Part shown: piece after piece, positions 56,956 through 59,487 of the stretch
Layout: each line of letters opens with the position of its first letter
How positions within the stretch are numbered: the stretch's first letter is position 1
Source: Evansella clarkii
GTDB lineage: Bacteria > Bacillota > Bacilli > Bacillales > Salisediminibacteriaceae
Assembly (NCBI RefSeq): GCF_002019695.1
Contig: NZ_KV917376.1
Span: forward strand, 340,118-404,117
DNA length: 64,000 nucleotides
Direction of reading: 5' to 3'
Translations under genes and position numbers: made by a program
Notes under the pieces: generated by a model
Databases searched by the model: none
What the model saw: the letters and a program-made list of their open reading frames with translations, nothing else
Told to the model about the DNA's origin: nothing

Positions 56956-59070
56956 TTATTCTTCGTCTTTAATTTTCATTAAACGGAGGCTGTTCAAAGT
57001 AACGAGCAAAGTTGCGCCCATATCTGCAAAAATGGCTATCCACAGTGTGAGTAATCCAAACGGGACAAGCATGAGAGCAAGAGCTTTAAGAGCCAGTGAA
57101 AATATTATATTCTGCTTAATAATTTTTAAGGTGAGCCTGCTGAGTTTTATTAAATAAGGCAGTTTTTTCAGATCATCTCCCATTAAAGCTGCATCAGCTG
57201 TTTCCAGAGCAGCATCGGTGCCAATAGTTCCCATTGCAATTCCCAGATCAGCTGCCGCTAATGCAGGAGCATCATTCATACCGTCTCCTACCATTGCCAC
57301 ACGGACACCTTCCCTTTTCAAGCGATTAATTTCAGCAAGCTTCTCCTCTGGCAGAAGACCTGCTCTAATGTCTGTTACTCCTGCAGTTTTGCCGATTGCT
57401 GCGGCTGTTGCAGAGTTGTCTCCTGTCAGCATAATCGTTCTTTTTATTCCGGCATTGTTCAGCTGTCTGAGTACATGTGCAGCTTGCTTCCGCACCTCAT
57501 CCTGAAGGGCAATGATTCCGAGGAGCCTCTCCTCACTTCCAACTAAGACAACAGTTTTTCCCTGCTCCTGCAGCTGAATAATATTATCTTTCAGCTCTTT
57601 GTTAATAAGCTGGGGATAAGTGTCCGATACATAAGACGGACTTGCTGCAAACATTGTCTTTCCGTTTACTTCAGCTTTCATCCCTTTCCCTGTCAGCGAG
57701 GCTGCTTCTGAAACTTCATACTCCTGCAGATTTCCTGATTCCTCTGCCTTGCGCACAATAGCTCTCGCCAGGGGATGCTGTGAATGTTTTTCCACAGCGC
57801 AGGCTATGCTCATTATCTCTCCTTCAGTACTATTAAGCGAAACGACATCAGTGACTGCCGGTACACCTCTTGTGAGAGTACCTGTTTTATCGAAGGCAAT
57901 TGCGTTAACAGCACCCGCCTGCTCAAGATAAAGCCCGCCTTTTATAAGTACTCCGTTCCTCGCACTGTTGCTTATTGCTGTCACAATGGCAACAGGAGTA
58001 GAAATAACAAGGGCACATGGGCAGCCCACCACTAATGTGGCAAGTCCCAGATAAATCCACTGGCTCCATTCAGCTGCCAGGAAAACCGGCGGCACAATTG
58101 CTACAAATAAGGCGAATACCATAATTGCCGGTGTGTAAAATTTAGCAAACTTGTCGACAAACTGCTGTGCCGGCGCACGCTCTTCCTGTGCCTCTTCTAC
58201 GAGATGAATAATCTTAGCAAGAGTCGTGTCTTCGGCATGCCTTGTAACCCTTATTTCCAGTACACCTTCTTCGTTAAGTGTTCCAGCATACACTTCATCC
58301 TTTTCCTGTTTAGTAACAGGAACGCTTTCTCCAGTGATAGTAGCCTGATTTACCGCGGAAAATCCGGATACCACTACACCGTCCAAAGCAAGTTTCTCTC
58401 CTGGTTTTACGATTATATGGTCGCCAATTTCAATTTGATCGATAGAAAGAGTAGTTTCTTTTCCATTTCTTTTTACGAGTGCTTCCTTAGGGGCGGTGTC
58501 TATAAGAGAGCGAATTGACCTTCTTGCATTCTCCATTGAAAATGTTTCCAGAGCTTCACTTATAGCAAATAGTATAACGACTACTGCTCCTTCTCCCCAT
58601 TCTCCAATAATTGCCGCGCCAATAACTGCTACAGTCATCAGCGTCTTCATATCAAATTCTAACCTGGAGAGATTTTTAAGTCCCTGCCAGAATAAATTGT
58701 AACCGCCCACCGCCATGGAGGTAAGGAATAATATAATTGCAGCTGGATGACCTTCGCCCCAGCTTAATGAGACTGACCAGCCAGCCGCTGCGAGAATAGC
58801 AGCAATAAGTACAAGGATATTCTTCTTCTTTTTCCAAAAAGGCACTACCGGGAAAGGGTCATCTTTTTCTCTCCGGATTTTTAAATGTTCAAAAGCACCG
58901 GCTTTCTCCAGTTCCTTTATTGTGGCATCCCCTTCAACAGTCAGCTTACCTGCAGTAAAATTCACATTTGCATCCCTCACTCCGGATATCTCTTTTACAT
59001 TCCGCTCGAACCGAGCAGCACAACTGGCTCAGGTGAAGCCCTGGACAATGTAAACATGGTTCTTATCCAT
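56956..59070 (-). CDS. cadA: CadA-type Cd/Zn/Pb P-type ATPase with in-frame UGA at codon 14
   Basis: 704 codons. From the ATG at 59070 (GGGAGG upstream, overlapping the cadC end by 8 bp) the frame reads MDKNHVYIVQGFT-UGA-ASCAARFERNVKEI. Known CadA proteins have VQGFTCANCA here, so UGA (59029-59031) replaces the first Cys of the metal-binding CXXC of the HMA domain (residues 5-70). The rest is intact: TGES, CPCALVIS in the metal-binding helix, phosphorylation site DKTGTLTRG and GDGMNDAPALA. It exports Cd, Zn or Pb. If UGA is not read as selenocysteine, translation must restart further down, for example at a GTG (58980), giving a pump without its HMA site. Confidence 0.85.
59002..59018 (-). promoter_or_regulatory. 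SECIS-like hairpin after the in-frame UGA
   Basis: Ten bases after the UGA, CTGCTCG and CGAGCGG (one G-U pair) form a 7-bp stem with loop GUU. A loop beginning with G about 18 bases after the UGA fits the loose bacterial SECIS consensus. Such a small hairpin can arise by chance. Confidence 0.4.
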
Positions 59071-59428
59071 TATTTTTTTCCTCCCGCTGGTGTGTGAAAG
59101 CAATATCTATTAACTGCCTTACATGCTCATCGTCCAGACTGTAAAAAACCAGCTTCCCCTCTCTTCTTTGCTTCGCTAATCCCTGTTTTTTCAGCAGCCG
59201 CAGGTGATGGGAAGCTGTGGCTGTGGATGCCTGGATAATGTTAGCCACATCACATACACAAAGTTCTTCCTCCACTGACAGAGCGTATGCAACTTTCAGG
59301 CGCGTAGGATCAGCAAGTACCTTAAATATACCGCTTGTGTTTTTTATTTCCTCTTCATTTATCGTCTTTTGAAGTGATGTAACCTTTTCTTCATCATAAC
59401 AATACACTTCACAAGTATCTTTCGCCAT
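59063..59428 (-). CDS. cadC: CadC, ArsR-family metal-responsive repressor
   Basis: 121 residues from the ATG at 59428 behind GAGGTGG (the frame extends to 59449). The CadC metal site is present: DTCEVYCYDEE near the N terminus and ELCVCDVA in the winged helix, which coordinate Cd or Pb through four Cys. Recognition helix QASTATASHHLRLLKKQGL. It represses cadC-cadA until metal binds. Confidence 0.94.
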   Translation of the reverse strand: MAKDTCEVYCYDEEKVTSLQKTINEEEIKNTSGIFKVLADPTRLKVAYALSVEEELCVCDVANIIQASTATASHHLRLLKKQGLAKQRREGKLVFYSLDDEHVRQLIDIAFTHQREEKNNG

Positions 59429-59487
59429 TTTATCCACCTCTCCAGTCATTCAAATGATACTTTGATTGTATACTTAGTTACAGTTAT

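Follow-up and report, generated by a model that had tools for sequence, protein, structure and literature searches.

A predicted selenocysteine codon in the metal-binding site of a CadA-type heavy-metal ATPase gene of Evansella clarkii

The cadA frame and its in-frame UGA

We analyzed a 64,000-nucleotide stretch of an Evansella clarkii contig (hereafter, the window), in which a gene for a P1B-type heavy-metal ATPase, cadA, carries a single UGA near its start. The question raised by this locus is whether the UGA ends the frame or is translated, and as which residue. The gene is located on the minus strand (56956..59070) and would encode 704 residues if the UGA at codon 14 were read as selenocysteine (Sec), namely 13 residues, Sec and a further 690. 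It starts at an ATG (59070-59068) and reads MDKNHVYIVQGFT, UGA (59031-59029) and ASCAARFERNVKEI, with 690 codons from the UGA to the stop, confirming a preliminary description of the locus in which the frame was said to match CadA on both sides of the UGA. Direct reading and comparison with relatives both place the UGA (59029..59031, minus strand) at the first Cys of the GFTCxxCA motif. The ATG lies in an 8-nt overlap with the end of an upstream partner gene on the same strand (59063..59449; stop codon, 59065-59063), whose product matches the ArsR-family model HTH_5 (PF01022) at 47.5 bits (cut-off, 22). We take this gene to be cadC from its position.

The open reading frame that follows the UGA (674 residues) scored 600.7 bits against TIGR01525 (cut-off, 346.25), indicating a heavy-metal P-type ATPase, and 530 bits against TIGR01512 (cut-off, 313.5). 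Assignment to CadA calls for a TIGR01512 match together with an adjoining gene for an ArsR-family regulator, and both were found here. Furthermore, the first 63 residues after the UGA match 2aj0 (E = 1.2e-18), the nearest solved domain, which is from a probable cadmium-transporting ATPase. The UGA is enclosed by an HMA metal-binding domain (58903..59052, minus strand), which scored above the cut-off of PF00403 (44.3 bits) and includes a single TGA. This domain had been described as metal-sensing; the HMA assignment stands but the sensing does not, as we take the HMA domain to be the N-terminal metal-binding domain of the pump and CadC to be the likely sensor. None of the 20 NCBIfam models matching cadA is named as a Sec form.

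A standard ORF call places the start of cadA at a GTG (58980), past the UGA, and the metal-binding motif is lost; therefore, in genomes of this kind the annotated CadA may lack the metal-binding site. This call favors an alternative reading, in which the UGA is a true stop and either translation from an internal start, such as the GTG, yields a shorter pump that lacks the CxxC, or cadA has decayed. Some P-type ATPases indeed have no HMA domain. However, the GTG is preceded only by a weak GAG, whereas a Shine-Dalgarno-like GGGAGG (59080..59085, minus strand, by direct sequence reading) is located 9 nt upstream of the ATG.

The codon and the hairpin among relatives

The codon at the CxxC site was then read in relatives. 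A first set consisted of 30 cadA loci drawn from among 60 relatives; in these, the codon was UGA in 18 and Cys in 12. A named-genome set, comprising the best 80 of at least 561 relatives of the post-codon protein stretch, was picked without regard to UGA and repeats at least three genomes of the first set; it contained 43 UGU, 25 UGA and 12 UGC codons and no other, so that all 80 loci have either UGA or a Cys codon at this site. In a census of the window's family (35 genomes; match threshold, E 1e-25), 21 genomes had a UGA cadA, 11 had Cys only and 3 had no match; a distant copy (L209) was left out of the codon reading. Note that the Cys codon of one locus (L041) was read by eye. Over all loci read, UGA was found in 52 of 123 (three genomes counted twice) and in many species; a predicted Sec form of cadA is, by these sequences, widespread among Bacillus relatives. 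Plasmid records with a related cadA numbered 221, as counted by cadA relatedness whatever the codon.

The closest pair with different codons consists of a UGA locus of the window's genome (L048) and a UGU locus of a congeneric genome (L206), with 98.3% identity across 807 nt. At the position of the UGA (L048:666-668), L206 has UGU, yet the letters of the hairpin described below are retained. This difference is a putative recent Sec/Cys swap.

These data bear on the alternatives. Against a true stop, the eight codons upstream of the UGA vary mostly synonymously (pN/pS of 0.40 and 0.20 in two UGA sets, by a crude pooled count); moreover, UAA or UAG was found at the codon in none of the same 123 loci, and a hairpin accompanies the UGA. 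Although three UGA genomes without detected Sec machinery, described below, speak for a true stop, we regard it as very unlikely. Reading of the UGA by a near-cognate or suppressor tRNA (e.g., as Trp), or a regulatory stop with occasional read-through, would agree with the some leakage of UGA by tRNA-Trp that is known in bacteria, but it is highly improbable given that the aligned residue was Cys in 55 of the 55 non-UGA loci among the best 80 of at least 561 relatives and that tRNA-Sec and SelB are present in the genome. A sequencing or assembly error, by which TGC or TGT was read as TGA, would agree with UGA being one base off the Cys codons, but its probability is negligible given that other species have this UGA too, among them that of L019, whose cadA is 95% identical to that of the window over the ATPase. 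All three alternatives were considered and rejected.

A 7-bp stem with the loop GUU, starting ten bases past the UGA, had been noted previously. We found it at 59002..59018 on the minus strand (59018-59002 as read), with 17 nt from the UGA to the apical loop and a folding energy of −9.7 kcal/mol. The bSECIS rules in the legend of Figure 2 of PMC13188914 specify a loop of 3-9 nt with a G in the first two positions, an upper stem of 4-16 bp, a UGA-to-loop spacing of 16-37 nt and a minimum free energy of −7.5 or lower. The window hairpin (GUU, 7 bp, 17 nt, −9.7 kcal/mol) lies within all of these limits, in line with the earlier remark that its loop position and G fit the bacterial SECIS consensus. 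Taken alone, the hairpin is not distinguished from chance (z = −0.55; equal or better folding in 58 of 200 dinucleotide shuffles) and was rejected as stand-alone evidence; against synonymous-codon shuffles it reached z = −1.40, with 9% as stable. It stands above chance by comparison, as many genomes have UGA at exactly this codon and the hairpin accompanies that UGA. An Rfam search of 58800-59300 returned only two chance-level matches (17.6 and 15.8 bits; gathering thresholds, 50 and 40).

Across relatives, the bSECIS rules were passed by 33 of 48 distinct UGA sequences and by 1 of 63 distinct Cys sequences; the 15 UGA sequences that fail mostly have an extra pair that closes the loop and absorbs its G. 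Hairpins with an energy of −7 kcal/mol or lower were found in 40 of 41 UGA rows versus 14 of 67 Cys rows, and their link with UGA was retained when independent pairs from the tree were compared (median p = 0.016). On the other hand, Cys relatives mostly have no hairpin, as expected of Cys forms. When compared with synonymous-codon shuffles, 40 UGA sequences had a mean z of −1.52, versus a mean of +0.19 in the 59 Cys sequences (Mann-Whitney, 3e-12).

The UGA sequences fall into two hairpin registers. Register A, that of the window (n = 11), has its stem from +11 to +27 and the loop GUU at +18, with 98.7% of cells paired; its covariation is limited to one double-changed pair in 2 cells, a level reached by 22 of 500 shuffles. 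Register B (n = 37) has an inner stem from +16 to +32 with the loop at +22, plus an outer stem, and 90.0% of its cells are paired. In register B, there were 16 double-changed cells versus 5.5 in shuffles (0 of 500 as high), and the covariation score was 0.181 versus at most 0.092 when the structure was slid. Both of the counts that kinship inflates least are weak in register B, namely double-changed pairs (4, reached by 39 of 500 shuffles) and further pair types (9, reached by 385 of 500), and RNAalifold recovered only the four inner pairs from 30 register-B sequences. The 59 Cys sequences paired in 56.3% of cells when fitted to the register B structure and in 26.2% when fitted to that of register A.

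Synonymous divergence over the 14 codons past the UGA was 0.449 in register A (10 rows) and 0.487 in register B (30 rows), versus 0.760 past the Cys codon (67 rows). Other stretches of these genes gave 0.67-0.76 (A), 0.62-0.77 (B) and 0.64-0.73 (Cys), and the drop past the UGA is visible only with them as the control; pN/pS over 20 downstream codons was alike in the three sets (0.33, 0.31 and 0.30). As for the comparison of relatives proposed in the preliminary description, the UGA is kept, and a conserved, covarying hairpin is found in UGA but not Cys homologues, clearly for register B and modestly for register A, including its compensatory changes.

Selenocysteine machinery, carriers and history

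The search for selA, selB, selD and tRNA-Sec that had been suggested for this genome found all four. By profile search, SelB scored 363.6 bits (curated cut-off, 242.25), and tRNA-Sec scored 62.2 bits in Rfam (gathering threshold, 47) and was also called by ARAGORN, with the anticodon TCA. SelA (544.3 bits) and SelD (318.7 bits) are encoded in the same cluster, and selD carries an in-frame UGA of its own (KAG-UGA-GCK). In addition, the genome has a second CadA copy with UGA at the same codon (7.3-kb contig) and a third with UGU (5.5-kb contig). Between selD and selA there is a frame MKVEFCMQ-UGA-NFAPKAAS (L016:13488-13718, plus strand), which we take to be SelW-like from recognition by eye, without a family match. 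Genes for an IS21-type transposase and its helper (L016:7337-9105) are located about 0.5 kb from the tRNA-Sec gene.

SelB was found in 22 of 24 UGA genomes versus 12 of 50 Cys-only genomes of the named set (Fisher, 2.9e-8, ignoring kinship) and in 20 of 21 versus 6 of 11 in the family census (p = 0.011, also ignoring kinship). The five near-complete genomes of the window's family without SelB all have a Cys cadA. On independent tree pairs the association was not significant (median p = 0.625), because many SelB genomes keep Cys.

In three UGA genomes (G005, G083 and G098), no SelA, SelB or tRNA-Sec scored over the cut-offs; the completeness of G005 is 76%. G083 and G098 each also have a Cys cadA. 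The UGA-cadA stretch of G083 is 95.8% identical over 6.1 kb to that of a SelB-bearing genome (L076 versus L073, 6065 bp), and that of G098 is 99.6% identical over 5.6 kb (L091, 2241-7871, versus L085, 5633 bp). These near-identical stretches also hold a cadC-like gene and a gene for a Cad-family (PF03596) transporter. We infer that the UGA cassettes of G083 and G098 were recently transferred into hosts unable to decode the gene; alternatively, the lack of a Sec system in these two genomes may reflect assembly gaps or contamination. The carriers that lack SelB point to a cassette for metal efflux that may or may not function according to whether its recipient makes selenocysteine.

The states UGA and Cys were mapped on a maximum-likelihood tree built by a quick method from 108 CadA proteins, from which the 20 post-codon residues were left out and for which a single support method was used. 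The best tree has 13 UGA/Cys changes, 9 of which are forced by well-supported branches, with gain and loss not distinguished. Registers A and B lie apart from each other on the tree, and A itself occupies two places, suggesting separate origins. A plausible but tentative wider picture is that a single mobile cadmium-pump gene of Bacilli exists as Sec and Cys alleles that are freely exchanged, that UGA arose more than once with its own hairpin register (A at +18, B at +22), that the Sec allele enters non-decoding genomes, and that the selenolate serves as a metal ligand and not as a redox catalyst.

UGA cadA genes of the Bacillaceae kind were also seen in a record labeled Chryseobacterium sp. 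ISL-80 (L117), whose place in the tree is among Bacillota, and in two Desulfoscipio metagenome-assembled genomes (L066 and L083) that have SelB. These three suggest transfer between classes, although the label of the Chryseobacterium record is perhaps an error.

A further UGA was observed in a gene for a CopZ-like HMA protein, GMSC-UGA-HC (G000:C1:912533-912742, minus strand; L135, L144), with a copy in G016 (L145). This UGA sits at a variable Gly/Asn/Asp residue, not at a Cys. A second genus has the identical DNA along some 690 bp, and no further genome among 60 showed it. The 50 nt past this UGA fold with the loop TTAA, without a loop G. It may be an unusual Sec site, or else a nonsense mutation that the two genera share through a mobile piece of DNA.

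Predicted function and relation to known systems

We consider it highly probable that cadA of the window is a selenoprotein gene in which UGA 14 is read as Sec in the HMA metal-binding site. The basis is the frame, the interchange of UGA and Cys, the hairpin that accompanies the UGA and the Sec machinery encoded in the genome. Translation would start at the ATG (59070), and the hairpin (59018-59002) would recruit SelB with Sec-tRNA(Sec) to UGA 14, so that selenocysteine is inserted. The product would be a CadA/ZntA-type pump with the HMA motif U-A-S-C in place of C-A-S-C. Its selenolate-thiolate pair may bind soft metals (Cd, Pb, Zn and perhaps Hg) more tightly, or may be redox-switchable, and the bound metal would then be handed over to the membrane channel. 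Compared with a thiolate, a selenolate is both softer and more acidic; therefore, it could plausibly capture soft metals more tightly or form a redox-gated site. Sec insertion itself and either form of metal binding are what we infer from the sequences. If Sec is present in the metal-binding site, the gene offers a direct test of selenium as a metal ligand, and the 98%-identical Cys/Sec pair L206 and L048 permits a clean comparison.

The selenoprotein candidacy put forward in the preliminary description therefore stands, but its novelty was overrated. Sec-containing (UxxC) E1-E2 cation-transporting ATPases are already tabulated as predicted selenoproteins in PMC13188914 and PMC9312934, and also in PMC5029168, whose table gives 25 organisms and 32 genes; one gene is given in PMC2398784. 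PMC13188914 credits the prediction to Zhang and Gladyshev 2007 and suggests that Sec may bind metal as a ligand in some selenoproteins, SaoB and SaoC among them. Selenoproteins of known function are mostly oxidoreductases according to PMC2398784. In a literature search that covered neither supplements nor most subscription journals, we found no description of a Bacillaceae Sec-CadA or its two hairpins, and we did not find in print the two registers, the frequent Sec/Cys exchange or the apparent cassette transfer into Sec-less genomes.

The window's cadA very probably belongs to this predicted kind: it scores over the cut-off of TIGR01525, its UGA aligns with Cys in UxxC (GFT-U-ASC), and Sec E1-E2 ATPases have the ATPase family and the UxxC motif in common with it. 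What differs is that two hairpin registers and carriers without SelB are described from the present data. Cys-form CadA/ZntA proteins, which are Cd/Zn/Pb-exporting P1B-type ATPases, are of the same protein family and have the same ArsR-family partner gene, whereas the window's cadA has UGA for the first Cys of GFTCxxCA. Predicted Sec mercuric transport proteins (MerT-like in PMC9312934 and MerP in PMC2398784, as listed there) likewise place Sec in a metal-handling transport protein, but they are of another protein family and are not P-type ATPases.
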